Positions 1-13,344 of a stretch of 13,344 bases of DNA are shown here, piece after piece. The notes below the pieces were generated by a model that was not told where the DNA came from, did not search any database, and worked only from the letters and a program-made list of their open reading frames with translations. The stretch's first letter is position 1. Each line of letters opens with the position of its first letter. The translations under genes and the position numbers were made by a program. Origin of the DNA: Hyphomicrobiales bacterium (GTDB lineage: Bacteria > Pseudomonadota > Alphaproteobacteria > Rhizobiales > Xanthobacteraceae); the NCBI GenBank assembly GCA_021730825.1, contig JAKFYO010000110.1, positions 1 through 13,344 on the forward strand, in the 5' to 3' direction.

Positions 1-639
1 GAGGTGACCGACCGTTCCCGTCGAACCCGGACCGCCGTCGACGAACAATTTGTCCCTGTGCCTGCCGTCCGAGCGCAGTTTCGAGACGAGAATACCGCGA
101 TCCTCCCTAGTGCCCGGCTGCTCAGTGCGCTCGAGCACCACCGCGCCAGCACCATCCCCGAACAACACGCAGGTCGTGCGGTCCTGCCAGTCCAGAATCC
201 GGGAGAAGGTCTCAGCGCCGATCACGAGCGCGCGGGTGAAATCGCCGGAGCGCAGATACTGGTCGGTGGTCGCCATGGCAAAGACGAAGCCGGAACAGAC
301 CGCCTGCAAATCGAACGCCGCGCCGCGCGTGATGCCGAGTTCCGCCTGCACGGTCGTCGCCGTCGCGGGGAATGTGAGATCGGGTGTCGAGGTCGCGACG
401 ATTACGAGATCGATATCGGCCGCGGTTATGCCTGCATTCGCAAGCGCCGCCTTCGCGGCGGCGATAGCAAGGTCGGAAGTCTTCTCGCCTTTGGCGGCGA
501 TATGTCTTTCCCGAATGCCGGTGCGCTGCACAATCCATTCGTCGGATGTGTCGACCTGCTGGGCGAGTTCGGCATTCGTCAGCGTGCGCGCCGGAAGATA
601 GGAACCGACGCCCCGCACGACGGAGCGGTACACTGTCAC
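1..639 (-). CDS. fabH: Beta-ketoacyl-ACP synthase III (KAS III), 3' end cut by window edge
   Basis: FabH condenses acetyl-CoA with malonyl-ACP in the cytoplasm, the step that starts each new fatty acid chain. The 213 codons present cover the N-terminal thiolase-fold half. They include the family segment [17 protein letters not shown] (residues 30-46), the catalytic cysteine C115 in AVCSGF, and the later GAETFS and FGDGAGAV segments. The catalytic His and Asn of the C-terminal half lie beyond the left edge. The start is GTG at 639-637, which overlaps the plsX stop as GTGA and has an AAGGAA ribosome site about 8 bases upstream; a second GTG at 633 is less well placed. Translational coupling with plsX is likely. 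Identity is very secure; only the exact start is uncertain. Confidence 0.96.
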
Positions 640-1688
640 TGCTGCATTTCCTTGGCCGTTTCAGGCGTTGCGGTCGTTTCGCGCCGCAAGCCGTCGGCTA
701 TTCCTTGAATTAGATTGTGGCGTACCACGTCGTAGCCGATTTCGATGGCGGATGCGAAGCCCTCCGGGTCGGTTCCGCCGTGGCTCTTCACGACAAGCCC
801 GTTGAGGCCGAGGAACAAGCCTCCGTTCGCGCGCCTCGGGTCCATTTTATCGCGCAGAACCTTGAACGCTCCGCGCGCGAAGAGATAACCGATCTTCGCG
901 CTCAAGGTTCGGCTCATCGCCGCGCGGAGGTATTCGCCGATCTGGCGCGCGGTTCCCTCGGCGGTCTTCAGCGCGATGTTCCCGGTGAAGCCTTCGGTGA
1001 CGATGACATCCACGGTGCCTTTGGAAATGTCGTCGCCTTCGACAAAGCCGTGATAATTGAAATGCGGCGAGTTCAAATCGCGAAGGATTTGCCCGGCCTC
1101 GCGCACTTCCTCGACGCCCTTCATTTCCTCGACACCGACATTCAGAAGACCGACCGTCGGGCGTTCGAGATCGAACACGACGCGCGCCATCGCAGCGCCC
1201 ATGATCGCATTATCGACGAGCTGCTTCGCGTCCGAACCGATCGAAGCGCCGACATCGAGCACAACGCTTTCGCCCCGGATCGAAGGCCAGATCGCCGCGA
1301 TCGCAGGCCGGTCGATACCGGCAAGCGGCTTCAGGCAGAACAGGCTCATCGCCATCAGCGCGCCGGTGTTGCCGGCGGAGATCGCGACATCCGCTTCGCC
1401 CTTCTTCACGGCTTCAATGGCGAGCCACATGGATGAAACTTTGCGGCCCTTGCGCAGAGCCTGGCTGGGCTTGTCGTCCATGCGCACGGCAACGTCGGTG
1501 TGGACCACCTTGGCGTTTTTGATGCGGCTTTGCTTCGCAAGGACAGGCGCGATCTGCTTTTCGTCGCCGAACAGAAGGTATTCGGTGTCCGGCCGGCGAA
1601 GTGCCGCAATTTCCGCCCCCGGCACAATCACGGACGGGCCGTGATCGCCCCCCATGACGTCAATCGCAATGCGGACCGTTCTGGACAT
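636..1688 (-). CDS. plsX: Phosphate acyltransferase PlsX
   Basis: PlsX converts acyl-ACP and phosphate to acyl-phosphate, the acyl donor for PlsY in the first step of phospholipid synthesis; it acts at the inner face of the membrane. The 350-residue protein has the usual family length. It shows the N-terminal [10 protein letters not shown] motif (residues 9-18), the SAGNTGAL motif (104-111) and a C-terminal segment rich in GG and LGL. The frame is open upstream to 1790, but the extra 34 residues are low-complexity and unlike the family, so the ATG at 1688 giving [14 protein letters not shown] is chosen. No convincing ribosome site precedes it. fabH follows with a 4-base overlap. A 138-base gap separates plsX from the upstream DUF177 gene, enough room for its own promoter, though I see only weak promoter-like matches there. 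Confidence 0.96.
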
Positions 1689-1826
1689 GCGGATTGGCAG
1701 CACAGGCTGTCGGGCTTCAGCCGAATGATTGAAAATGCCCGGCCCCGCTCCGGCGCTGGCCGACAATAGCGGTTCGGCGCACCCGTTCAACCCGGAACGA
1801 ATAATACTTGCCTTATCAACAGCTTA

Positions 1827-2363
1827 CTATTGTTTCTTGATTCTGTCTTTCAGTCCGGAAAGGCCTTCGAAAGGGCTTCGCTTCGGCTCCGGCGGCGCCT
1901 CTTCTTTGGCGGCAGGCGCGGAGAACTCCACACCCGGCTTTCGCGGATAGGGATCGACCGCAAGGATCAGGAATTCGGTGCCGAGCGCGCCGAGATCGAT
2001 CTTCCCGTCGACGATCGGGTCCGGCAGATCCTCAATCTCTTCTTCGTCGTCGGTCTCCGCTTCGCTTTCCGGCGCGACCGCGAAATCGACCGCAATGTTC
2101 TCGGAGATCTGATTGTCGAATTCATCGAGGCTGACCACGCAAGCCTGCCGCACCACTCCGTCCAACTTCCCGACCACCTCGGCGGCGTCTTTGCCGACCG
2201 GCCGCACTTCCACGAGCATTTTGAGCGCGGGAACGGAGATGACGTCCGCCGCCTCCGCGAGGCGCTTTCGTGTCTCCTCATCCGGCACCAATTCAAAGGA
2301 CCGTCCTTCCGCCGGAATGGAAGCGAGTTCTATTTCATGCGTCCAGGCTAGATCACTTTGCAT
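1827..2363 (-). CDS. DUF177 / YceD-family protein (23S rRNA accumulation protein)
   Basis: This belongs to the DUF177 (YceD) family, whose E. coli and plant members are needed for normal 23S rRNA accumulation. In many bacteria the gene sits next to rpmF and plsX; here plsX follows but rpmF is absent. The 178-residue protein shows a mixed N-terminal half, a single cysteine (C75) within RQACVVSLDEF that matches the family's conserved Cys-x-x-(S/C)-L core, an acidic linker at about 100-113, and the LILAVDPYPRKPGV segment near 132-145 that is usual in alphaproteobacteria. The tail is rich in Lys and Pro. A TTG at 2369 is also possible, but the ATG at 2363 has AAGG nine bases upstream and is preferred. 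It overlaps the end of the preceding bc1 chaperone gene by 11 bases, so the two are likely co-translated. Molecular function is not established in this group. Confidence 0.85.
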   Translation of the reverse strand: MQSDLAWTHEIELASIPAEGRSFELVPDEETRKRLAEAADVISVPALKMLVEVRPVGKDAAEVVGKLDGVVRQACVVSLDEFDNQISENIAVDFAVAPESEAETDDEEEIEDLPDPIVDGKIDLGALGTEFLILAVDPYPRKPGVEFSAPAAKEEAPPEPKRSPFEGLSGLKDRIKKQ

Positions 2364-2901
2364 CGGCAACTGCCTTCATGGGCGCGGGAAACGTAACCTC
2401 GCCCGCAAGATACTGCTCCAGCGGCTGAGCGCCGGCCATGCCGGCGGCTTCAAACGCATAGGCAGCGAGTGGCGCAGCCTTAGATGCTTCAACGCCGGCG
2501 AGAATATTCCGGGCTATCGCACCGGCCAGTGCGGGCTCATCGCCCTTTGCGATAGCTGCCCCATACAGCGCCGAGCGCCCGAGATAGGCCTCTGCCAGCG
2601 TCCGCATTTTCTTCGGGACTTTGAGATCGCCGATCCCGATTTCGCGCAAGGATGCGTCCATGTCTTCGAAGAAGTGGTCGAGCAATTCCTGCCCGAGTGA
2701 GGCCCCTGCCTCGCCAAACGCGGCGAGCCGCTCGTTTACGAGATGCATGTGCAGCACCAGGAGATCGAAACGGCCTTCGACCGTATCGGGTACGCCTAAG
2801 CTCCGGTAGAAATCCGGCTGCCGGGACTGCGCCACGATGGCGCCATAGAGCCGTTCGATGGTCTTCCGGCGTCCGGAATCGCGCTTCTTGAACAGGAACA
2901 T
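2353..2901 (-). CDS. Ubiquinol-cytochrome c chaperone family protein (CBP3/UQCC1-like)
   Basis: This is a bacterial member of the Ubiq_cyt_C_chap (CBP3/UQCC1) family. In mitochondria these proteins help make and assemble cytochrome b of respiratory complex III; the alphaproteobacterial members are presumed to act likewise on the bc1 complex. The 182-residue protein begins MFLFKKRDSG and then shows the family core: the helix IERLYGAIVAQSRQPDFY, followed by LGVPDTVEGRFDLLVLHMHLV and DHFFEDMDASLREIGIGD-KVPKKM. The core continues to a helix around LAEAYLGRSALY. The frame is open to 2967, but the first 22 codons look non-homologous, so the ATG at 2901 is chosen. The gene diverges from bamE (82-base gap) and its stop overlaps the start of the DUF177 gene. 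Family assignment is from recognised sequence pattern; the role is by homology. Confidence 0.88.
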   Translation of the reverse strand: MFLFKKRDSGRRKTIERLYGAIVAQSRQPDFYRSLGVPDTVEGRFDLLVLHMHLVNERLAAFGEAGASLGQELLDHFFEDMDASLREIGIGDLKVPKKMRTLAEAYLGRSALYGAAIAKGDEPALAGAIARNILAGVEASKAAPLAAYAFEAAGMAGAQPLEQYLAGEVTFPAPMKAVADAK

Positions 2902-2983
2902 GCCAGCCCGGTGAGTAATTTGCGTTTCGTAGCCGCGCGAGGTAGTCGCGGGGTCGCGACAAGTCAATCCGGCAATTAACCAT

Positions 2984-3475
2984 ATGCCTGTCAGACCGCT
3001 TCAATCTTCCGCATTTCGCCGTGTCTCAGCGCTTGCTGCGCTGCTTCCGGCGCTGGCGCTTGCGGCATGCAGTTCGATGCCGGTGAACAGCTTCACCCAG
3101 ACCTACCAGCGCGGCTATGTCCTCGACGAAAACGCGCTCCAGCAGGTTCCGGTCGGATCGAGCCAGGAGCAGGTTCTGCTCGTGCTCGGAACGCCCTCCA
3201 CGGTTGCGACGCTTTCCGGCGAAGCGTTCTATTACATCTCGCAGAAGACGCAGCAGACCGCCTTTATGCGTCCCGAGGTCATCGATCAGCGTGTGCTCGT
3301 CGTCTATTTCAGCCCTGATCGCCGCGTGACGCGCATCGCAAATTACGGCTTACAGGACGGCAAGGTCTTCGACTTCATCAGCCGCAGCACGATTGCCGGT
3401 GGCTCCGACATCAGCCTGGTCGGAAACATTCTCAGGAACGTCGGCAACATCAATCCGTTCGGCGCCGGCAACTAA
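2984..3475 (+). CDS. bamE: Outer-membrane assembly lipoprotein BamE (SmpA/OmlA family)
   Basis: BamE is a small lipoprotein of the BAM complex, which folds and inserts beta-barrel proteins into the outer membrane. The 163-residue product has a lipoprotein signal peptide: a basic N-terminus (RPLQSSAFRR), a hydrophobic core (about 15-27) and a lipobox LAAC with the lipidated cysteine at C29. Ser at +2 fits sorting to the outer membrane. The SmpA/OmlA domain follows, seen in GYVLDENALQQVPVGSSQEQVLLVLGTPS (two parts of one motif, residues 44-72) and FYYISQKTQQTAF. The C-terminal tail after about residue 125 is longer than the E. coli protein and is rich in Gly and Asn, as in other Rhizobiales OmlA proteins. 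It is transcribed alone, divergently from the bc1 chaperone gene, and ends 21 bases before a strong terminator hairpin. Confidence 0.93.
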   Translation: MPVRPLQSSAFRRVSALAALLPALALAACSSMPVNSFTQTYQRGYVLDENALQQVPVGSSQEQVLLVLGTPSTVATLSGEAFYYISQKTQQTAFMRPEVIDQRVLVVYFSPDRRVTRIANYGLQDGKVFDFISRSTIAGGSDISLVGNILRNVGNINPFGAGN

Positions 3476-3496
3476 ACGAGCCTGATCGTTTCAAGA

Positions 3497-3530
3497 AAAA
3501 GCCCGCGAGGATCGCTCCACGCGGGCTTTT
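3497..3530. terminator. Bidirectional intrinsic terminator between bamE and hppA
   Basis: A perfect 11-bp stem (AAAAGCCCGCG at 3497-3507 paired with CGCGGGCTTTT at 3520-3530) encloses a 12-base loop. The plus strand ends in a T run for bamE, and the minus strand reads into a T run for hppA, whose stop lies 21 bases away at 3551. The hairpin sits exactly in the short gap between the two convergent genes, so it can serve both. Confidence 0.9.
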
Positions 3531-3550
3531 CGTTTCGTATGGCGTCTCGC

Positions 3551-5683
3551 TTAGTGCGCGAGAATTGCGAGCAGTAACAGCGCCACGATGTTCGTGATCT
3601 TGATCATCGGGTTTACCGCCGGACCGGCCGTATCCTTGTAAGGATCGCCGACCGTGTCGCCGGTGACGGAAGCCTTATGCGGCTCGGAACCCTTGCCGCC
3701 GTAGTGACCGTCTTCGATGTACTTCTTGGCATTGTCCCAGGCGCCACCGCCCGAGGTCATCGAGATCGCGACGAACAGACCCGTCACGATCACGCCAAGG
3801 AGCATGGCACCGAGCGCTGCGAAGCCCGCGGCTTTGCCGGCCGCGCCTTGTCCCGCGATAAAGAAGATCGCGAAATAGACGACGATCGGCGACAGCACCG
3901 GCAAGAGCGACGGGATGATCATTTCCTTGATCGCCGCCTTGGTCAGGATGTCGACCGCCCGGCCGTAGTTCGGCTTGGAGGTGCCCTTCATGATGCCCTT
4001 GTTCGTCTTGAACTGACGGCGGACTTCTTCGACGATGGCGCCGGCCGCACGGCCAACTGCCATCATGCCCATCGCGCCGAACAGATACGGCAGCAGGCCA
4101 CCGAACAGGAGGCCGACCACGACGTACGGGTTAGACAGCGAGAAATCGACCTTCACGCCCGCGAAGTATTTGTACTGCGCGGAGTTCGCGACGAAGTAGT
4201 TGAGGTCCGACGTATAGGCTGCGAACAGCACCAGCGCACCGAGACCCGCCGAACCGATGGCGTAGCCCTTGGTGATCGCCTTGGTGGTGTTGCCGACCGC
4301 GTCGAGCGCATCGGTGTATTTGCGGGTGTTCTTCGGAAGACCCGCCATTTCCGCGATGCCGCCTGCGTTGTCCGTCACCGGACCGAAGGCGTCGAGCGCG
4401 ACCACCATGCCGGCCAGCGCCAGCATTGCCGTCACCGCAATCGCAATGCCGAACAGGCCCGCGAGTGCGTAGGTAACAAGGATGCCCGCGATGATGACAA
4501 GCGCAGGCAGTGCCGTCGCTTCCATCGAGACCGCGAGGCCCTGGATGATGTTGGTACCGTGGCCGGTCACCGACGAAGCGGCAATCGACTGCACCGGACG
4601 GAAGTTCGTGCCGGTGTAGTACTCCGTGATCCAAACGATCAGGCCGGTCACGACGAGACCCGCGAGCGCACAATAGAACAGCGACATGCCCGTGAAGGTC
4701 ATGCCCTGCACGGTGAGCTGCGTATTGAAGCCGATCAGCTTGTCCGTCACGAACCAGATCGCAGGCACCGACAACACCGCTGACGCGATGAAGCCCTTGT
4801 AGAGGGCGCCCATGATCGACTTGCTCTTGCCGAGCCGCACGAAGAACGTGCCGACGATCGAGGTCACGATGCACGCGCCGCAGATCGCGAGCGGATAGAG
4901 CATGATGTTTGCGAGGTTCGGGCTTGCTGCGAAGAAGATTGCTGCCAGCACCATCGTGGCGACAACCGTCACCGCATAGGTTTCGAACAGGTCGGCTGCC
5001 ATGCCTGCACAGTCGCCGACGTTGTCGCCAACGTTGTCTGCAATCGTCGCCGGGTTGCGCGGATCATCCTCGGGGATGCCCGCTTCGACTTTACCGACGA
5101 GGTCGCCGCCGACGTCCGCACCCTTGGTGAAGATGCCGCCGCCGAGACGCGCGAAGATCGAGATCAGCGAAGCGCCGAAGCCAAGTGCCACGAGCGCGTC
5201 GATCACGACGCGGCCTTCGTTCAGCTTGTATGCGAGCGGTCCGACGAGGAATGCGTAGTAGCCGGCAACGCCCAAGAGCGCGAGACCGGCAACCAGCATG
5301 CCGGTGATCGCACCGGCCTTGAACGCGAGGTCCAAACCGCCGCCCAGCGACTTGGTCGCGGCCTGCGCGGTGCGCACGTTGGCGCGTACCGAGATGTTCA
5401 TGCCGATGAAGCCGGTGAGGCCCGAAAGAATGGCACCGATCGCAAAACCGATCGCGACCCAGACCCCGAGCAGCCACCAGACCACTGCGAAGATCACGGC
5501 GCCGACGATGGCGATCGTGGAATATTGACGCTGCAGATAGGCCTGCGCGCCCTCGCGGATTGCGCCGGCAATTTCTTGCATGCGCTTGTTACCGGCATCG
5601 GCCGACAGAACGGAGTTCGTCGCCCAAAGACCGTAGAGAATCGCCAGCACGCCGCTGGCGAGGATCAACCACAAAGCGTTCAT
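3551..5683 (-). CDS. hppA: Membrane-bound proton-pumping pyrophosphatase, K+-independent type
   Basis: HppA hydrolyses pyrophosphate and uses the energy to pump protons across the inner membrane. The 710-residue length and many hydrophobic helices (first at about 2-24, then 56-92 and onward) fit the 16-helix family. The substrate and metal site is visible as [16 protein letters not shown] (187-202), then [20 protein letters not shown] (205-224); a second acidic site is [12 protein letters not shown] (431-442). The segment [10 protein letters not shown] carries Lys468 and Thr471 where K+-dependent enzymes have Ala; this marks the K+-independent H+-pumping subclass. The frame is open to 5779, but the ATG at 5683 with AGGGG nine bases upstream gives the normal N-terminus [11 protein letters not shown]. 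It lies 181 bases downstream of thiL with a structured leader, and converges on bamE. Confidence 0.97.
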
Positions 5684-5692
5684 CGCTATATG

Positions 5693-5697
5693 CCCCT
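5693..5697 (-). promoter_or_regulatory. Ribosome binding site deciding the hppA start
   Basis: AGGGG on the minus strand lies 9 bases upstream of the ATG at 5683. It supports that start over upstream in-frame codons, whose extension (5684-5779) runs through G/C-rich palindromes and does not read like protein. Confidence 0.6.
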
Positions 5698-5738
5698 GAT
5701 AATCGGTCGTAATTCGCCCGCGCTCTCTGGCCACATGG

Positions 5739-5830
5739 CCGGGCGCGAAAGTTCCGGGGGGTCCCCCCAAAGCCGGCAACCTTTGCCAAAAATGCCTTAG
5801 CGGCGCAACTCGCGAGACGCCTATTTAGGC
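5739..5830. repeat. Cluster of four short palindromes in the hppA leader
   Basis: The 181-base gap between the thiL stop and the hppA start holds four short inverted repeats in a row: GGCCACATGGCC (5739-5750), GGGGGGTCCCCCC (5756-5768), GGCAACCTTTGCC (5775-5787) and GCCTATTTAGGC (5819-5830). Arms are 5-6 bp. None is followed by a T run on the minus strand, so they do not look like a thiL terminator. They could form small hairpins in an hppA leader RNA or be protein-binding sites. I could not match them to a known riboswitch class, and some may be chance in G/C-rich DNA. No clear -35/-10 pair was found in this gap. Confidence 0.35.
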
Positions 5831-5864
5831 AGGATTCCGCAACGAACTGCGCGTTTCTTTCGGC

Positions 5865-6863
5865 TTAGAAGTGGCTGAAGGACGCCTTTTGGAACGAAAG
5901 TGGATTACCGTCCGGTCCCAGCACCGAAACGCCATCGCCCGCGCCGAAGGTCCCGATTCTCGAAACCGGAACTCCGGCTTTGCCTGCGGCTTCCGCGAAG
6001 GCGTCGAAACGGCGTTCCGGGATCGCCGCCAGCACCTCGTAATCGTCGCCGCCCGTGAGTGCGGTCGAAAGCAGCGCCGCCTCGCCTGCAATCGCATCGT
6101 GCGCCGGGTTCGAGAGCGGAATTTTCGCGGTTTCGATGCGGGCACTGACCCCGGAAACGGCAGCAAGCTTGCCGAGGTCGCCGACAAGACCGTCCGAAAC
6201 ATCCATGGCGGCATTCGCGTATTCGCAAAGCAAAGGCGCAAGCGCGAGGCGCGGCTCCGGCATCCGATAGCGGCGCATGAGTTCAGCGGCCTGCGGCTTG
6301 TTCAGATCGCCAAGCCCGCCGCTCAGCATGCGCTGCTTTAATAGAAGTGCGAGTGCTGCGTCCCCGATCGTTCCCGAAACGACAATAAGATCGCCCGGCT
6401 TCGCACCTGTCCGCTTCACCATCCGTCCTGCCGGCACTTTGCCGATGGCGGTAATGGAGATCGAAAGCGGACCCGGCGTTTTCGTCGTGTCCCCACCGAT
6501 AAGCGGACACAAAAACGAAACGCAGTCTTCGCCGAGCCCGCGTGCAAAATTCGCGATCCAGCTCTCCTCGATCCCTTCCGGGAAAGAAATCGCAAGCAGC
6601 GCGCCGATGGGTGCAGCACCTTTGGCCGCCAAATCGGAAAGATTTACGCGCAGCGCCTTCTTCGCAATCGTATCGGGCGGATCGTCCGCGAAGAAATGCA
6701 CGCCCGCGACCGTCGTATCGGCGGTGAGCACGAGATCGTATCCGGAAGGCGGCGTGATAAATGCGGCGTCGTCGGAAAGCGCGAGTGCGCCGGGATAGGA
6801 AGCGAGCGGTTTGAAGAAGCGCTCGATCAGCTTGTCCTCGCCGCTCGGTTCGCGCTTTTTCAT
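5865..6863 (-). CDS. thiL: Thiamine-monophosphate kinase
   Basis: ThiL phosphorylates thiamine monophosphate with ATP to give thiamine diphosphate, the active cofactor; it is cytoplasmic. The 332-residue protein has the normal length and the AIRS/PurM-like fold signatures in order: the acidic metal motif SDDAA (30-34), TADTTVAGVHF (48-58), the NLSDLAAKGA nucleotide-site segment (74-83), IGGDTT (122-127), SGTIGDAA (163-170) and DVSDGL (221-226). The ATG at 6863 is the only usable start, because an in-frame TAG lies seven codons upstream. The ribosome-binding region consists of the arm of a long hairpin repeat that ends one base before the ATG. In related genomes the gene follows nusB closely; here a repeat pair of about 165 bases separates them. 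Confidence 0.95.
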   Translation of the reverse strand: MKKREPSGEDKLIERFFKPLASYPGALALSDDAAFITPPSGYDLVLTADTTVAGVHFFADDPPDTIAKKALRVNLSDLAAKGAAPIGALLAISFPEGIEESWIANFARGLGEDCVSFLCPLIGGDTTKTPGPLSISITAIGKVPAGRMVKRTGAKPGDLIVVSGTIGDAALALLLKQRMLSGGLGDLNKPQAAELMRRYRMPEPRLALAPLLCEYANAAMDVSDGLVGDLGKLAAVSGVSARIETAKIPLSNPAHDAIAGEAALLSTALTGGDDYEVLAAIPERRFDAFAEAAGKAGVPVSRIGTFGAGDGVSVLGPDGNPLSFQKASFSHF

Positions 6864-6864
6864 G

Positions 6865-6942
6865 CTAGTGGTCCGATCCTAACATTCGCATATCCTTTAC
6901 TGTAGCGCTCCCTTGCGAATGTTAGGATCAAAGGACCACTAG
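6865..6942. repeat. Long hairpin repeat A between nusB and thiL (REP/MITE-like)
   Basis: The arms at 6865-6890 and 6914-6942 are inverted copies of each other over 26 bp, with no mismatches. The right arm carries three extra bases (AAA, at about 6930-6932), which form a bulge ten bases in from the outer end. The loop is 23 bases (6891-6913). The outer ends read CTAGTGG...CCACTAG and the inner ends ATTCGCA/TGCGAAT. The left end lies one base from the thiL start codon. No open reading frame lies inside. It resembles a non-autonomous palindromic mobile element; I do not know a formal family name. Confidence 0.85.
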
Positions 6943-6954
6943 AAGTTTTAAAAT

Positions 6955-7033
6955 ACTAGTGGAGTTTTGGATTTGATATTCGCGTCGCAGACTCGATGAA
7001 ACGGAACGCGAATATCAAATCCACTCCACTAGT
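6955..7033. repeat. Long hairpin repeat B between nusB and thiL (REP/MITE-like)
   Basis: The arms at 6955-6985 and 7006-7033 pair over 28 bp, with no mismatches; three extra T residues in the left arm form a bulge ten bases from the outer end. The loop is 20 bases (6986-7005). The ends read ACTAGTGG...CCACTAGT and the inner ends ATTCGCGT/ACGCGAAT. It shares the CTAGTGG outer end, the TTT bulge position and the ATTCGC inner end with repeat A, but the stem between differs and the asymmetry is reversed, so A and B are related elements in opposite orientation. The right arm overlaps the last bases of nusB and supplies its TAG stop codon. Confidence 0.85.
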
Positions 7034-7493
7034 TCGCGAAGTCCTTGGGCCGCGCCTGCTTTGCCAGCGCATCGAGCACGGCATTGGCCATGCCGACATC
7101 TTCTTTATCCAGAAACGCGGCCGCGACATCGACATACTCGCTGACGACCGCGCGCACCGGAATATCCTGACGATGATAAAGCTCGTAGGCGCCTGCGCGA
7201 AGCGTCGCGCGCAACACGCTCTCCACGCGCTTCAAGGCCCAGCCTTCGTTCAGCGTCTTGTCGATCACGGGGTCGAGCGTCGTCTGCTCGCGCACCACAC
7301 CCTCGACGACATCGCGGAAATGCCTCTCTTCCGCCTCTTCGTATCGCTCGCCTTCGATCTCGCGTCCGATCCAGTGCCGCTCGAATTCGGAGAGCACGTT
7401 CGGGAGTGGCGAAGCGGCAATATCCATCTGGTAGAGCGCCTGCACCGCCGCGAGACGCGCGGCACTTCTTTCCTTGAGCGAGGTCCTGGCCAT
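7029..7493 (-). CDS. nusB: Transcription antitermination protein NusB
   Basis: NusB binds boxA RNA with NusE (S10) in the antitermination complex that keeps RNA polymerase going through rRNA operons. The 154-residue all-alpha protein shows the family features: a basic N-terminus followed by SAARLAAVQALYQMD (residues 9-23), then the VLRATLRAGAYEL helix, IPVRAVVSEYVDVA and DVGMANAVLDALA near the C-terminus. The frame is open to 7559, but the ATG at 7493 gives the usual MARTSLKERSAAR start and lies one base after the ribH stop. The gene ends KDFAN, and its stop codon TAG is part of hairpin repeat B, so the last residues may have been changed by insertion of the repeat. It lies in the usual ribH-nusB-thiL order. 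Confidence 0.95.
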   Translation of the reverse strand: MARTSLKERSAARLAAVQALYQMDIAASPLPNVLSEFERHWIGREIEGERYEEAEERHFRDVVEGVVREQTTLDPVIDKTLNEGWALKRVESVLRATLRAGAYELYHRQDIPVRAVVSEYVDVAAAFLDKEDVGMANAVLDALAKQARPKDFAN

Positions 7494-7494
7494 T

Positions 7495-7968
7495 TTAGCG
7501 GCCGATCTGGCTGCGCGCGATGCGAATGAGCGCAAGTGCTGCGGATGCCGCGGCTCCACCGAGGTCGCCTTCGGAGCGTTTCGCGCGGACCCAGGCTTGC
7601 TCTTCGTTCTCTACCGTCAGAATGCCGTTTGCGACCGCGATCTTTTTATCCACGCCAAGACGCATCAACGCGTGGGCGGACTCATAAGAGACGATGCCGA
7701 AATGCTCGGTCTCGCCGCGGATCACGCAGCCGAGTGCGACCACGCCGTCGTAACGGCCCGAGCCGATTGCGATGGAGGCCGCAATCGGAATTTCAAGCGC
7801 GCCGGGAACGCTGATGCGGTCGGCTTTCGCTTTCGCTTCCTCGATGCGAGCCAATGCGCCAGCCACGAGTTCGTCCGCGATTGCTTCGTGAAAGCGCGCA
7901 TCTATCACGAGGAGCTTTGCGCCCTCGATGGGCGCCTCGGCTTTGCGGGGTGCAGGTTTGAAGACCAT
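7495..7968 (-). CDS. ribH: 6,7-dimethyl-8-ribityllumazine synthase
   Basis: RibH condenses 5-amino-6-ribitylaminouracil with 3,4-dihydroxy-2-butanone 4-phosphate to give lumazine, the second-last step of riboflavin synthesis; the enzyme forms oligomeric cytoplasmic shells. The 157-residue protein contains the substrate motifs VPGALEIP (54-61) and GCVIRGETEHF (80-90), with the catalytic base H89, then VSYESA. The frame is open to 8070, but the ATG at 7968 yields a normal short N-terminal arm (MVFKPAPRKAEAPIEG), and the extension would overlap the ribE end. It follows ribE by 19 bases and precedes nusB by one base, so it is part of one transcript. The 3,4-dihydroxy-2-butanone 4-phosphate synthase and GTP cyclohydrolase II genes are not in this window. 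Confidence 0.96.
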   Translation of the reverse strand: MVFKPAPRKAEAPIEGAKLLVIDARFHEAIADELVAGALARIEEAKAKADRISVPGALEIPIAASIAIGSGRYDGVVALGCVIRGETEHFGIVSYESAHALMRLGVDKKIAVANGILTVENEEQAWVRAKRSEGDLGGAAASAALALIRIARSQIGR

Positions 7969-7987
7969 GGCGGCTGCGATACCGCGC

Positions 7988-8596
7988 TTACTTGTACTCG
8001 GCAAGCCGCGCGACATAACGCGCAAGCTGGTCGACTTCGACGTTAACCTTGTCGCCCGCTTTGAGGCCATTCCAGTTCGTAACCTGCAACGTATGAGGGA
8101 TCAGGTGGACGGAGAATTCCGCGCCCTTTACTTCATTCACGGTGAGCGAAATTCCGTCGAGCGCAACCGATCCTTTGACCGCGATGTAGCGCGCAAGCGC
8201 CTCGGGCGCGCGCAACGCGATCTTCGACGACTGATCGAAATCCTCGCGCGAAACCACATCGGCAATTCCGTCAACGTGGCCGCTGACAAGATGCCCGCCG
8301 AGTTCGTCGCCGACCTTTAGCGAGCGCTCCAGATTGATCTTGGTGTTCGCTTTCCAGCCGCCGGCGGTGGTAATCCGAAGCGTTTCCGGGCCGACCTCGA
8401 CCTCAAACCAGTCCTCGTCGCGCGCCACCACGGTGAGACAGATGCCGTTGCACATCACCGACGCGCCGAGATCGATGGTCTTCGCATCGTACCGCGTGGC
8501 AATCCGCAACCGCTTCAGATTGGCCTTGGACGCAGGGTCGAAGCGGCCGGTCTCTGACCGGATCACGCCGACATCGGTGACAATTCCCGTGAACAT
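7988..8596 (-). CDS. ribE: Riboflavin synthase, alpha subunit
   Basis: Riboflavin synthase dismutates two lumazine molecules into riboflavin and the pyrimidine that RibH reuses. The 202-residue protein is the usual length and has the two tandem lumazine-binding repeats. The N-terminal repeat begins MFTGIVTDVG and contains NGICLTV; the second contains GGHLVSGHVDG (about 99-109) and DGISLTVN. The essential N-terminal MFTGIV strand is intact. A ribosome site GGAAG lies seven bases before the ATG, inside the end of ribD, whose stop is four bases away. In E. coli nomenclature the same gene is called ribC; ribE is the usual name in alphaproteobacteria. Confidence 0.96.
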   Translation of the reverse strand: MFTGIVTDVGVIRSETGRFDPASKANLKRLRIATRYDAKTIDLGASVMCNGICLTVVARDEDWFEVEVGPETLRITTAGGWKANTKINLERSLKVGDELGGHLVSGHVDGIADVVSREDFDQSSKIALRAPEALARYIAVKGSVALDGISLTVNEVKGAEFSVHLIPHTLQVTNWNGLKAGDKVNVEVDQLARYVARLAEYK

Positions 8597-8600
8597 CTTG

Positions 8601-9755
8601 CTACTTCCGGAACAGGCGGATCATCTTATCGGAACCGAGCGCACGTTCCTCGATGATCCTCAATCTTGGTGAAGCGAGTAAGGCATCGAGCGGCAAGCCC
8701 TCCAGCGCCTCGATGGCATCAGAACCGAGTGTGGCAGGTGCCTGGACTACGACAGCCTCATCGACGAGATCGTTCTGCAACAGCGAAGCCGAAAGCATCG
8801 GCCCGCCCTCGACCAGGAGCCGCGTGATGCCGCGGCTACCAAGCTCGCGCATCGCATCGGCAATAACAGGCTTACGATATTTGTCTTTCGTCACCTGAAC
8901 GCGAATGACTTCCACACCCTTCGCTTCCAGCGCTTTCTGCTTGTCGGTGGGCACATTTTCGCCCGCGATCACGATCAGCTTTCGTGCTTTCGCGGTCTGC
9001 ACGAGATGACAGTCGAGCGGGATGCGGAGCGAACCATCCAGCACGACGCGGACCGGCGAGCGGTCTTCCATGCCCGGCAGGCGGCAGTCGAGTTTCGGAT
9101 TATCGGCGAGCACCGTGCCGCTGCCGACCATGATCGCATCACACGTCGCACGAAGAATATGCGCTTCCGCCGTCGACACGGGACCTGAAATGCGTGCGGG
9201 TTTGCGGCCGGCAAGTCCGGTCTTCCCGTCAGCGGAGACCGCGATCTTTAAAAGAATATGCGGGCGGCCGTCACGCACGCGGCGAAAATGTCCCGCGTGA
9301 TCGATCTTCGCCTGACCTGCGCCGACGCCGACGATTGTTTCGATCCCTGCATCCCGCAGCATGCGGATGCCGTTGCCCGAGACGAGCGGGTTCGGGTCTT
9401 CGATCGCAATGACGACGCGGCCCACCTGCGCGTTCACAAGCGCGCTCGCGCAGGGCGGCGTTTTCGATTGATGCGCGCATGGCTCGAGCGTCACGTACAT
9501 CGTGGCGCCTTTCGCTGCATCGCCTGCGGCCTTGAGCGCTTCCGTCTCTGCGTGCGGCCTGCCGCCTTTCGCGGTGACGCCGCGCGCAATCACAACGGGC
9601 TCGATGCCGTTCGATCTGACGATAATCGCACCGACCGAAGGATTAGGTGCGGCCAGACCCATGTGACGGCGGCCGAAATTAAGTGCCGCATCCATGAAGC
9701 GCGCATCGTCTCCGCCAACCGGCGTCACAACACCTGAATACTGAAGCGCGTTCAT
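8601..9755 (-). CDS. ribD: Bifunctional riboflavin biosynthesis deaminase/reductase
   Basis: RibD deaminates the pyrimidine produced by GTP cyclohydrolase II and then reduces its ribosyl side chain with NADPH, two consecutive steps of riboflavin synthesis. The 384-residue protein carries both domains. The N-terminal cytidine-deaminase-like domain has PNPSVGA (38-44), the zinc and proton-shuttle motif HAE (68-70) and the zinc cysteines C93 and C102 in EPCAHQSKTPPC. The C-terminal RibD reductase domain (about 160-384) contains KIAVSADGKTGLAG, PVRVVLDGSLRIP and RLLVEGGPML. The ATG at 9755 is 11 bases after the nrdR stop; M21 (9695) is an alternative start that would still keep the catalytic domain whole. 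No FMN riboswitch-like leader precedes it, in keeping with its position inside an operon. Confidence 0.95.
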   Translation of the reverse strand: MNALQYSGVVTPVGGDDARFMDAALNFGRRHMGLAAPNPSVGAIIVRSNGIEPVVIARGVTAKGGRPHAETEALKAAGDAAKGATMYVTLEPCAHQSKTPPCASALVNAQVGRVVIAIEDPNPLVSGNGIRMLRDAGIETIVGVGAGQAKIDHAGHFRRVRDGRPHILLKIAVSADGKTGLAGRKPARISGPVSTAEAHILRATCDAIMVGSGTVLADNPKLDCRLPGMEDRSPVRVVLDGSLRIPLDCHLVQTAKARKLIVIAGENVPTDKQKALEAKGVEVIRVQVTKDKYRKPVIADAMRELGSRGITRLLVEGGPMLSASLLQNDLVDEAVVVQAPATLGSDAIEALEGLPLDALLASPRLRIIEERALGSDKMIRLFRK

Positions 9756-9766
9756 GCGGGCCGCGC

Positions 9767-10240
9767 CTACCCGGCACCTTTTGGCCGCTCGCCTTCCGCG
9801 AGTTCGCCGAGCACGTCCTCGAAGTCTTTCGGGTCGCGGAAGTTGCGATAGACCGACGCGAAGCGGACGTAAGCCACGTCGTCGAGCTGTTTCAGCCCGT
9901 CCATCACGAGTTCGCCGATCATCTCCGAGTTGATTTCCTCGTCGCCAGCGCTCTCTAAGCGCCGCACGATGCCGGAGACCATCTGGTCGATTCGATCCGG
10001 CGCGACCGGGCGTTTACGGAGCGCAATCTGCACCGAACGCAGGAGCTTGTCGCGGTCGAACGGCGTGCGGCGTCCGTTGCGCTTCAAGACCGTCAACTCG
10101 CGCAACTGCACGCGCTCGAAGGTCGTGAAACGCTGGCCGCATTGCGGACAAATACGGCGGCGCCGGATCGCAGCCGAATCTTCGGTCGGCCGCGAGTCCT
10201 TCACTTGCGTATCGGCGTTACCGCAAAAGGGGCACCGCAT
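9767..10240 (-). CDS. nrdR: Transcriptional repressor NrdR
   Basis: NrdR represses ribonucleotide reductase genes by binding NrdR boxes when its ATP-cone domain senses high dATP/ATP. The 157-residue protein has the N-terminal zinc ribbon with cysteines C3, C6, C31 and C34 (CPFC...CPQC) and a basic stretch RRRR between them for DNA contact. The ATP-cone domain (about 49-139) follows, seen in [16 protein letters not shown] and [13 protein letters not shown]. The C-terminal tail is short and charged. The ATG at 10240 gives the invariant MRCPFC start, with a GAGGGC ribosome site upstream. It lies 27 bases after glyA and 11 before ribD, the usual order in Rhizobiales. The ribonucleotide reductase genes it controls are not in the window. 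Confidence 0.97.
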
Positions 10241-10267
10241 GTTTTATGCCCTCGCCCTAGATTTCGT

Positions 10268-11572
10268 TCACTGATAGATCGGAAAGCGTTCGAGAAGTTT
10301 CGCGACTTTCTCGCGCACCGCCGCTTCGACCATCGAGTCTTCCTCGACGCCCTTCTGCGAAAGCACGTTCAGGACTTCGGCGATGTAGTCGCCGACAAGC
10401 TGGAATTCCTTCACACCGAAGCCGCGCGTCGTGCATGCCGGCGAGCCGAGGCGAATGCCGGAAGTCACCTGCGGTTTTTCTGGATCGAACGGAATCCCGT
10501 TCTTGTTACAGGTGATATAGGCGCGGCCCAACGCGTTCTCGGAGATCTTTCCGGTGAGACGCTTCGGGCGCAGATCGACCAGCATCACATGCGTATCGGT
10601 GCCGCCGGAGACGATATCGAAGCCGTGCGCGCGGAGATTTTCGGCGAGCGCTTTGGCGTTCTCAACTACGTTCTTTGCGTAAAGTTTGTAGACAGGCTGC
10701 AACGCTTCAGCGAAGGCCACCGCTTTACCCGCGATGACGTGCATCAGCGGTCCGCCCTGCAAGCCAGGAAACACCGCCGAGTTGATCTTCTTGGCTAACG
10801 CTTCATCGTTCGTGAGCACGAGACCGCCGCGCGGGCCACGCAACGTCTTGTGCGTGGTCGCGGTCACGATATGCGCGTGCGGGAATGGACTCGGATGCGC
10901 ACCGCCTGCGACGAGACCGGCGAAATGCGCCATGTCCACCATGAACACCGCGCCGACACTGTCCGCGATCTTGCGGAAGCGCGCGAAATCGATTTGCCGC
11001 GGATATGCCGAGCCACCGGCGACAATCAGCTTCGGCTGATTTTCACGCGCAAGCTTCTCGACCTCATCGTAGTCGATCCGGTGGTCGTCCTTGCGGACGT
11101 TGTAAGGCACAACCTTGAACCATTTGCCGGACATGTTTACCGGCGCGCCGTGCGTGAGATGTCCGCCGGCCGCTAGGTTCAAGCCCATGAAGGTGTCGCC
11201 CGGCTTCATCACCGCCATGAACGCCGCTTGGTTAGCCTGACTGCCGGAGTTCGGCTGCACGTTCGCGAAACCGCAGCCGAAGAGTTTCTTCGCGCGATCG
11301 ATTGCAACCGTCTCGACGATATCGACCCACTTGCAGCCGCCGTAATAGCGGTTGCCCGGATAGCCCTCGGCATACTTATTCGTCAGCACCGAGCCCTGCG
11401 CTTCGAGCACGGCCTTCGACACGATGTTCTCGGAGGCGATGAGTTCGATCTCGTGCCGCTGGCGACCGAGTTCACCCTTCACCGCGCCGAAAATTTCGGG
11501 ATCGCTCTGTTCGAGCGTGGCGGTGAAAAAGCGGTTCGCATCGTTGCGATCCAACGGATCGGTCGCGGACAT
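10268..11572 (-). CDS. glyA: Serine hydroxymethyltransferase
   Basis: GlyA is the PLP enzyme that converts serine and tetrahydrofolate into glycine and 5,10-methylenetetrahydrofolate, the main source of one-carbon units for purine, thymidylate and methionine synthesis. The 434-residue protein has the normal length. Visible motifs are [13 protein letters not shown] (43-55), the glycine-rich [13 protein letters not shown] (67-79), PNSGSQAN (107-114), [12 protein letters not shown] (211-222) and the PLP-binding lysine K242 in [12 protein letters not shown]. The frame is open upstream to 11785, but the ATG at 11572 is preceded by a strong TAAGGAG site and gives the normal N-terminus, so it is the start. 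It is probably transcribed with the small gene upstream (79-base gap) and with nrdR downstream. Confidence 0.98.
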
Positions 11573-11578
11573 TGCTGG

Positions 11579-11585
11579 CTCCTTA
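11579..11585 (-). promoter_or_regulatory. Strong ribosome binding site of glyA
   Basis: TAAGGAG on the minus strand lies 6 bases upstream of the ATG at 11572. It is the best Shine-Dalgarno match in the window and fixes the glyA start, ruling out the in-frame 71-codon upstream extension. Confidence 0.8.
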
Positions 11586-11651
11586 GCCTCAAGGGTTATG
11601 AACGGGTTCCGCCTAACATAGCCGACCCACAAAAAGAAGCGTAACGAGGGC

Positions 11652-11846
11652 CTAGCTGCCCCTATCCATTGCGAGTCTGCGCCTGAGCTTGGCAATGGCC
11701 AGTTGCTCAAGGCTTTGCGGGCTCGCGTTGGCCGGCCCCATGACGACGACCTCCGTGCCGGTCGCAACGTCAACGGCTGCAACACGGACCACGCTCCCGA
11801 CGGGGCGCATTTCCACGATCACTTCGCCTTCGCCCTTGGTGGGCAT
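11652..11846 (-). CDS. Small conserved protein upstream of glyA (DUF6898-like)
   Basis: A 64-residue protein reading [17 protein letters not shown], then [20 protein letters not shown], and ending in a basic helix [16 protein letters not shown]. The pattern is a compact beta-rich N-terminal part and a C-terminal amphipathic helix, with no membrane segment or signal peptide. I recall small proteins of this kind, labelled DUF6898, next to glyA in Rhizobiales; that name is from memory and unverified. No function is known to me. The ATG at 11846 has a GGGGGC site about nine bases upstream. It lies 79 bases ahead of glyA on the same strand, so it is probably the first gene of the glyA-nrdR-rib transcript. 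Codon bias resembles its neighbours, supporting a real gene. Confidence 0.7.
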
Positions 11847-12013: not shown

Positions 12014-12019
12014 GGAGAG
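12014..12019 (+). promoter_or_regulatory. Ribosome binding site of the chemoreceptor-like gene
   Basis: GGAGAG ends five bases before the ATG at 12025 and supports that start. The 178-base divergent gap (11847-12024) must hold promoters for both flanking genes, but I found no convincing -35/-10 pair in it. Confidence 0.55.
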
Positions 12020-12024
12020 TGCAG

Positions 12025-13344
12025 ATGCCGGAGCCTACCGGCACGAAATTGCCTGCCCCCAAACTGCCGGCGCTACGCATCGCGCTGCCAGTATTCCTCG
12101 CTTCCGCGTTGACGGCATACGCAACGCTTTACCTCGGCATCGTGCCGGGACTGATCGCGGCTGGCTGCTTGTCGCTACTCGGCGCGTGGATCGTGGACCG
12201 GAAATATGGCTCGCTGACCGAAGCCATCTCCCGCATCTCGCAGGGCGATCGTTTCGCAGAATTGCCCGCGACTTCAGACGGTCCGACTTTCGAGAAGTTG
12301 GCTGCTGCCGCCGAAGCGATGCGTAAGACATTGTTGGACGCAGATGCGCTTGCCGCCGATCAGCGCTCGCGACAGGACGAAGCACGGTTGCGGCACGCGG
12401 GACGCGTGTTCTTCACGAAGAAATTCCGCGCCGCCATCGATGAAGTGCTCACCACTTTCGCCGCGGCGGGCGAGGAAATCCGCGTCACCGCGAACGAACT
12501 TTCGGCGCGAAATCTTCGCATGCGTGCGCAGGTGTCGGACGCTTCGGCAACTGCGACTTCGGCCGCACGCGACTCCGAAGCGGTCGCGGATTCCGCAAAC
12601 AAGCTTTTACAGTTGCTCGACGACTCCACGCTACAGATTTCGGCAGCCCAGAAAGCCACCGACCAGACCATTTCCGATCTCGACCGTACCGACCGCATCG
12701 TGCGCAGTCTTTCCGCTGCCGCGGGCGAAATCGACGAAGTCGTGAAATCCATTCAGGCGATTGCCGACAAGACTTCGCTCTTGGCGCTGAACGCGCATAT
12801 CGAAGCCTCTCGCGCGGGCGAAGCCGGCAAGGGCTTCTCGGTGGTCGCAAGCGAAGTGAAAGCGCTTGCCGCCCAAACCGCGAAAGCGACCGGCAACATC
12901 GACGCGCAGATCGGCGATATTCAGCAAGCAGTCGAAGACACGGTAAGCGCGATCAACGCGGTCTCGGCAAGCGTCGGCACCATGAGCGAAACCAGCCGCG
13001 TGATGACCGCGAGCCTCGATCATCAGGCGGAGGAACTGCGCCACATCAGCGACCGCGCGGTGAAGGTGGCAAGCGGCGTCGGCGGCGCGTTGCCGGAGAT
13101 ATCGTCAGCGGTGACGCAAGTCGAAGACGCAGGCGAGTCCGTGCTGACGACCGCGAACGATCTGATCGACCGCTCGCAATGGATGCTCGACGCAGTCGAG
13201 CGCTACTTCGCGAACCTCGACAGCGGCGCGATCAAGGTAGGTATCCTGCACTCGCTCTCCGGCACCATGACCGCGAGCGAGCGGCCACTGCAATCGCTCC
13301 TCGTCATGCTGATCGAGCAACTGAACGAGCGCGGCGGCCTGCTC
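12025..13344 (+). CDS. Methyl-accepting chemotaxis domain fused to a UrtA/AmiC-like binding domain, 3' end cut by window edge
   Basis: The frame stays open for 440 codons to the right edge. Domains in order: a hydrophobic stretch at about 17-57, long enough for a two-helix membrane hairpin and with no large periplasmic loop; a HAMP-like segment at about 61-103 ([17 protein letters not shown]); helices to about 130; and an MCP signalling region of long heptad-like helices at about 130-390. The hairpin tip is at 255-282 ([17 protein letters not shown], then [10 protein letters not shown]), close to the canonical tip but with H258 and S262 where Ala is usual. From residue 403 it reads [13 protein letters not shown], then [20 protein letters not shown], which is how the urea/amide-binding proteins UrtA and AmiC begin. 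With no membrane segment after 57, the binding domain should lie in the cytoplasm. The signalling part is secure; the second domain rests on about 38 residues. Ligand and output are unknown. Confidence 0.85.

Follow-up and report, generated by a model that had tools for sequence, protein, structure and literature searches.

The window analysed here, a stretch of 13,344 nucleotides, is the entire contig JAKFYO010000110.1 (C15) of the Hyphomicrobiales assembly GCA_021730825.1 (G000) and not a slice of a longer contig, and it ends within a gene in which a chemoreceptor signalling domain is fused to a binding domain of the UrtA/AmiC type. The assembly is fragmented (2.1 Mb, 382 contigs) and 72.84% complete. 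The first 440 codons of the fused gene occupy 12025..13344 of the forward strand, starting from an ATG at 12025 and remaining open up to the contig end; the likely ribosome-binding site GGAGAG, recognised by reading the sequence, lies 5 bases upstream of the ATG (12014..12019, forward strand). The encoded polypeptide begins with a hydrophobic hairpin (residues about 19-58; 12079..12198, forward strand), which on the basis of hydropathy and a model of the homologue from genome G002 probably comprises a pair of membrane helices joined by a very short turn. This is followed by the signalling domain of methyl-accepting chemotaxis proteins (MCPs; PF00015, residues 208-371; 12646..13137, forward strand) and by the start of the C-terminal binding domain, equivalent to positions 1-37 of PF13433 (13231..13344, forward strand). 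Within the MCP half, the hairpin tip region (12763..12876, forward strand), the part that in known MCPs contacts CheA/CheW, differs from ordinary MCPs in that the near-invariant Asn located two residues ahead of the LALNA motif is replaced by Ser. Further downstream, Asp-His-Gln (residues 332-334; 13018..13026, forward strand) aligns with a consensus methylation site, at which the ordinary MCPs of relatives mostly have Glu, Glu/Gln and Gln. The remainder of the binding domain is encoded on the reverse strand of another contig of the same assembly (C71; L027:6503-7687), which overlaps the window end with 179 of the last 180 bases identical; the single difference may be due to strain variation.

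The MCPsignal match of the 440-residue open reading frame (ORF) scored 91.8 bits against a curated Pfam cut-off of 34.6, and the short Peripla_BP_5 match at residues 403-439 (positions 1-37 of 363) scored 32.8 bits against a cut-off of 27. The UrtA profile TIGR03407 matches residues 403-440 of the same frame, and the rest of the domain continues in frame in C71 to a stop (450.6 bits against the UrtA profile). Hydropathy windows of 19 residues exceeding 1.6 start only at residues 19-40, the G002 model places helices at 16-39 and 41-74, and no hydrophobic segment was found C-terminal of the N-terminal part. Most of the architecture proposed in an earlier note, made from the letters of the window, is thereby borne out, namely the N-terminal hairpin, the MCP signalling domain, the UrtA-like start at residues 403-440, the reversed order of the two modules and the presence of a full binding domain past position 13344. 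The HAMP-like segment claimed in the same note was not recovered, since neither the window ORF nor any of 17 fused members gave a Pfam HAMP match at E<=1. As for the assertion that the binding domain lies inside the cell and has no signal peptide, the lack of any later hydrophobic segment agrees with it, and the position of a secretion signal is taken by the hairpin and the MCP part; the cytoplasmic side is what we infer from this topology.

Unbroken versions of the gene were found in six genomes of the same genus (G001, G002, G003, G004, G006 and G007; 81-97% identity to the window ORF) and, at 55% identity, in G024 of a different genus. The called proteins of G002, G001 and G024 are 781, 798 and 778 aa long, and in that of G002 the MCPsignal domain (211-372) precedes Peripla_BP_5 (405-770, E=7.3e-132). 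Eight genomes of the genus, G000 among them, were searched, and only G005 (86% complete) yielded no copy. A search of 5.8 billion proteins gave 4198 matches at E<=0.001, a figure in which plain MCPs and UrtAs may be counted; the best 120 of these 4198 all carry both domains, and 118 of the 120 are at least 700 aa long. Genome samples were screened at E<=1e-90 (family), 1e-110 (order), 1e-135 (class) and 1e-135 (phylum), thresholds at which diverged fusions could be missed. The fusion was detected in 38 of 391 family genomes (35 full-length, two partial in G286 and G053, and G000 itself, split over two contigs) and, besides G000, in three of 347 genomes of the order sample (all of family f32, none with an internal stop), in three of 385 of the class sample (G762, G885 and G765) and, among 398 genomes of the phylum sample, in G765. 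A junction search in named organisms returned at least 80 loci, one of which is a carrier, the Xanthobacteraceae metagenome-assembled genome L106 (99% over residues 1-87); 56 of the other 79 listed loci entered the tree described below, all 56 labelled stand-alone. The fused protein is a conserved family, and its presence in relatives, considered possible in the earlier note, is confirmed.

The same data bear on the possibility that the joined frame is an assembly or sequencing artefact merging two genes. It is true that the window ends within the gene, that one of the 180 overlapping bases is different in the next contig, and that one of the 35 full-length family matches (G320) contains two internal stops. 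However, the 34 others and the three in another family have none, and the closest protein relatives mentioned above are uniformly two-domain and nearly all of full size, so that we regard an artefact as extremely improbable; a stop, frameshift or chimeric joining just past position 13344 is ruled out by the unbroken versions in seven relatives.

For a tree of the binding domain, candidates were chosen by two short sequence patterns, domains with fewer than 330 query residues and duplicates were dropped, and the G765 domain was added and L027_4 set as fused by hand. The resulting tree comprises 152 fused and 80 stand-alone domains (as labelled) together with AmiC and two UrtA structures, and places all fused domains in a single clade (support 0.735). 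The sole extra member of this clade, L192_9, which had been labelled stand-alone by the patterns, is the fused protein of G060; the remaining 79 stand-alone rows originate from L107-L185 (56), L090-L105 (15) and elsewhere (8). The main fused clade of 150 members has a support of 0.815, and the support for both clades is thus moderate. In a tree of the MCP halves, from which G762 was left out as missed by the selection pattern, G765 groups with 118 main-clade sequences (support 1.0) and G885 with three ordinary MCPs (0.855); judged by these trees, separate fusion events rather than one origin are conceivable. Three stand-alone UrtAs lying in long frames (L204, L205 and L206) were considered as further fusions and rejected, as the residues just upstream of the domain look by eye like a secretion signal.

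Many named members of the family bear the JGI label "urea transport system substrate-binding protein" (e.g. P0007, P0021 and P0029), under which the MCP part is hidden. Taken literally, this name would make the protein a substrate-binding subunit of a urea transporter, an explanation that we consider to have a barely perceptible chance of being correct. Five fused proteins scored 453.2, 439.6, 450.6, 457.5 and 458.5 bits against TIGR03407, all below the NCBI cut-off of 492.75, whereas the stand-alone UrtA of G002 reached 559 bits. Moreover, the MCP hairpin sits before the binding domain, and the fusion coexists with a separate stand-alone UrtA-like gene in G001, G002, G003, G006 and G007 (none was found at E<=1e-90 in G004 or G000). 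The nine neighbouring genes of locus L031 scanned with Pfam include neither a urt gene (other loci were surveyed by eye and clustering only) nor an AmiR-type ANTAR antiterminator.

By both sequence and structure comparison, UrtA and AmiC rank first for the C-terminal domain, which leaves little support for the branched amino acids that the earlier note had listed among possible ligands. In the part of the UrtA-urea structure report drawn on here (PMC10392092), urea is contacted by W120, S122, Y141, Q144, E146, Y190, N246 and S274; our residue numbering is that of UrtA and reproduces these published contacts. Among 149 main-clade domains, which are distinct but partly close sequences and represent mostly the nearest relatives, not a random sample, W120 and Y141 are kept in all 149, E146 in 148, Q144 in 147, S122 in 146 and S274 in 139. 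Residue 143 is Ser in all 149. The Asn at 246, present in 79 of 79 stand-alone UrtAs, is replaced in 147 of the 149 fused domains, by Ser in 113, Thr in 33 and Ala in one, leaving two with Asn. Residue 190 varies as well (Tyr 115, His 24, Gln 5, Thr 3, Asn 1, Ser 1). G762 and G885, on the other hand, have fused domains that retain V143 and N246 like UrtA. These patterns suggest that the early fusion form was probably urea-like and that the clade of the window has since shifted in specificity or affinity, the ligand being presumably a small amide- or urea-like molecule. The G765 protein (L203:7625-10027) is a diverged member with an unusual pocket (S143, T190, G246), in which no membrane hairpin is obvious on inspection by eye; it is possibly a soluble version.

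It might be argued that the receptor senses urea itself and that the change of Asn246 lowers the affinity to suit higher intracellular concentrations. UrtA is the nearest relative of the domain, the two UrtA-like residues are kept in G762 and G885, and urease was matched at E<1e-50 in 21 of the 27 carriers examined; yet Tyr190, a urea contact, is not constant in the fused clade, and six carriers are without a strong urease match (G001, G616, G690, G597, G765 and G177), G001 and G616 being single-contig assemblies. At the looser cut-off of the urease family itself, 26 of 28 genomes tested match, the weaker matches covering only part of the profile, and these may be other amidohydrolases. Sensing of urea as such therefore seems unlikely, and the internal-urea sensor proposed in the earlier note is weakened for the clade of the window by the replacement of Asn246 with Ser or Thr (146 of 149) and by the six carriers. 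A second objection is that the domain binds nothing and serves in dimerisation or protein contacts, like AmiC with AmiR, for which a complex structure exists (1qo0, by its title), and the loss of Asn246 in most members would fit this. Nevertheless, a dead pocket should drift, whereas most pocket residues are almost invariant over the 149 domains and residue 143 is always Ser; a dead pocket is therefore improbable, and we give this alternative little credence.

The signalling half was compared between 118 main-clade fused proteins and 44 ordinary MCPs of relatives, these being related sequences and not independent events. From column -6 to column +31 around LALNA, the tip sequence is mostly that of the ordinary MCPs. 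The general methylation motif is missing in 111 of the 118 fused proteins and in three of the 44 ordinary MCPs. At the conserved second methylation site, Glu or Gln occurs in 27 of the 29 ordinary MCPs that belong to the same score group (the groups having been assigned by us), and the fused proteins have His in 100 and Gln in four of 118. Because the consensus site is lost, the usual CheR/CheB-dependent reset of the response is probably lacking. CheA, the presumed partner, was detected in 42 of the 44 carriers examined, the exceptions being the incomplete G000 and G231, and FlhA in 11 of 12 genomes, G000 again being the exception; G002 and G007 each have a single CheA match, and in G002 the CheA gene lies ~10 kb from flhA. 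In four carriers (G001, G223, G060 and G159) the MCPs fall into two score groups of about 170-191 and about 58-108 bits, with the fusion in the lower, which is the sole group seen in G002, G007 and G024.

Taken together, we consider it fairly probable that the gene encodes a chemoreceptor anchored in the inner membrane, whose C-terminal cytoplasmic sensor of the UrtA/AmiC type detects a small intracellular amide- or urea-like molecule and controls CheA, probably without the usual CheR/CheB reset. What the data show are the architecture, its conservation, the pocket changes, the loss of the methylation motif and the occurrence of CheA in carriers. The two-lobed domain would be held in the cytoplasm at the C-terminal end of the MCP hairpin, and binding of such a molecule inside the cell would close the two lobes. 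Lobe closure could then pull on the returning MCP helix, which joins the first strand of the domain via a short linker, and the movement of this helix would alter the activity of CheA at the tip. With the consensus methylation site gone, such a receptor would presumably report the standing internal level of its ligand. Among the readings offered in the earlier note, the best fit is that of a signalling protein that has borrowed a binding fold.

Several observations weigh against this explanation. The Ser two residues before LALNA is present in all 118 fused proteins, as compared with Asn in 43 of 44 ordinary MCPs (at this position the G885 fusion carries Gln and the G765 fusion Arg), and thirteen residues after the LALNA start 69 of the 118 have Ala for Glu, which the window retains. 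The residue following the lost methylation site is Gln in 118 of 118, so a modifiable residue may remain, and other glutamates may be usable. CheA is equally present in four of four non-carriers tested, and therefore only the availability of a partner, a precondition, is shown; in G000 itself neither CheA nor FlhA was found in the assembly, which is 72.84% complete, and the CheW-, CheB- and CheR-like ORFs beside the CheA gene of G002 were identified by eye only. The proposed topology was derived from hydropathy and a model of modest quality, and no neighbouring gene, among the nine scanned at L031 or at the loci inspected by eye and clustering, hints at a ligand. As to the origin of the family, a tentative scenario, which we judge possible but somewhat short of probable, is that of an alphaproteobacterial fusion of UrtA to an MCP, in which the binding domain was moved to the cytoplasmic receptor end, methylation control was lost and the pocket was then changed, so that motility would be steered by one or more internal amide- or ureide-like nitrogen metabolites.

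Upstream of the fusion gene, the window carries housekeeping genes (639-11785), and Pfam assigned ten of the ORFs to FA_synthesis, YceD, Ubiq_cyt_C_chap, BamE, H+-pyrophosphatase, an AIR-synthase type, NusB, lumazine synthase, Lum_binding and serine hydroxymethyltransferase (SHMT), the scan having excluded the ORFs at 1-639, 8601-9755 and 9767-10240. At the g1 loci the neighbours are glyA (the SHMT gene of the window) and a convergent MarR-type gene, and at several loci of g50, g54 and f32 ORFs close to the fusion gene resemble, by eye, rho, a DUF255-like gene and mnmE. In G024 (L034:13650-18902) the fusion gene is followed on its 3' side by an ORF of MarR-like type and a set of genes for a branched-chain-type ABC transporter, likewise recognised by eye. 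Gene context thus says little on the ligand. An ORF with the reverse-transcriptase domain RVT_1 is located close to the fusion gene at L031:16983-17744.

In chemotaxis, folds of the binding-protein type usually operate outside the membrane. Here such a fold is built into the receptor, stands last in the chain and probably faces the inner side, so that, if the proposed explanation is true, the cue that steers swimming would be a small molecule within the cell and not one outside it. The family thus offers a natural test of a two-lobed sensor driving an MCP from the C-terminus in the absence of both a detectable HAMP and the usual methylation motif, and the pocket of the domain provides a direct route toward the ligand. 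In addition, a misleading database name is corrected, many members having been labelled as urea transporter subunits.

Table 3 of a chemoreceptor catalogue (PMC8547431) contains a ligand-domain cluster of high DPS in which a single sequence bears the label Peripla_BP_5, that of the fused domain; section 7 does not comment on its architecture, and the sequence may or may not belong to the present family. Among the papers listed by PubMed Central (PMC) searches aimed at this architecture, the coverage of which leaves out most subscription papers, no description of a binding-protein domain C-terminal to an MCP hairpin was found. AmiC, the amide receptor of Pseudomonas aeruginosa (1pea, 1qo0), employs the same fold for sensing within the cell, but it is free-standing and acts on AmiR, and its pocket differs from the fused one at 120, 143, 144, 246, 248 and 274. 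UrtA (8tg1, 8hic; PMC10392092, as far as covered here) shares the fold and most pocket residues and provides the nearest sequence relatives. Unlike the fused protein, which differs at 143 and 246 and scores under the NCBI UrtA cut-off, it is secreted and feeds a transporter. In Aer of Escherichia coli the PAS-FAD sensor precedes HAMP and the signalling domain, so the sensor comes first and a HAMP is present, whereas the fused protein carries its sensor at the end and gave no HAMP match. Aerotaxis by Aer is reported to be methylation-independent, and Aer has three putative methylation sites (PMC13401364); a membrane anchor, a cytoplasmic sensor and methylation-independent behaviour would be common to both receptors, the last two being predicted for the fused protein. 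TlpD of Helicobacter pylori, a CZB chemoreceptor, resembles the fused protein in having its sensor C-terminal to the MCP hairpin and in lacking canonical methylation sites, but, in the account available to us (PMC12871147), it is soluble and combines an N-terminal PAS domain with the zinc-binding four-helix CZB in place of the hydrophobic hairpin and the two-lobed domain. C-terminal sensors on MCPs are hence already known from TlpD, and what appears new here, as far as the PMC papers listed go, is a binding-protein domain in that place.
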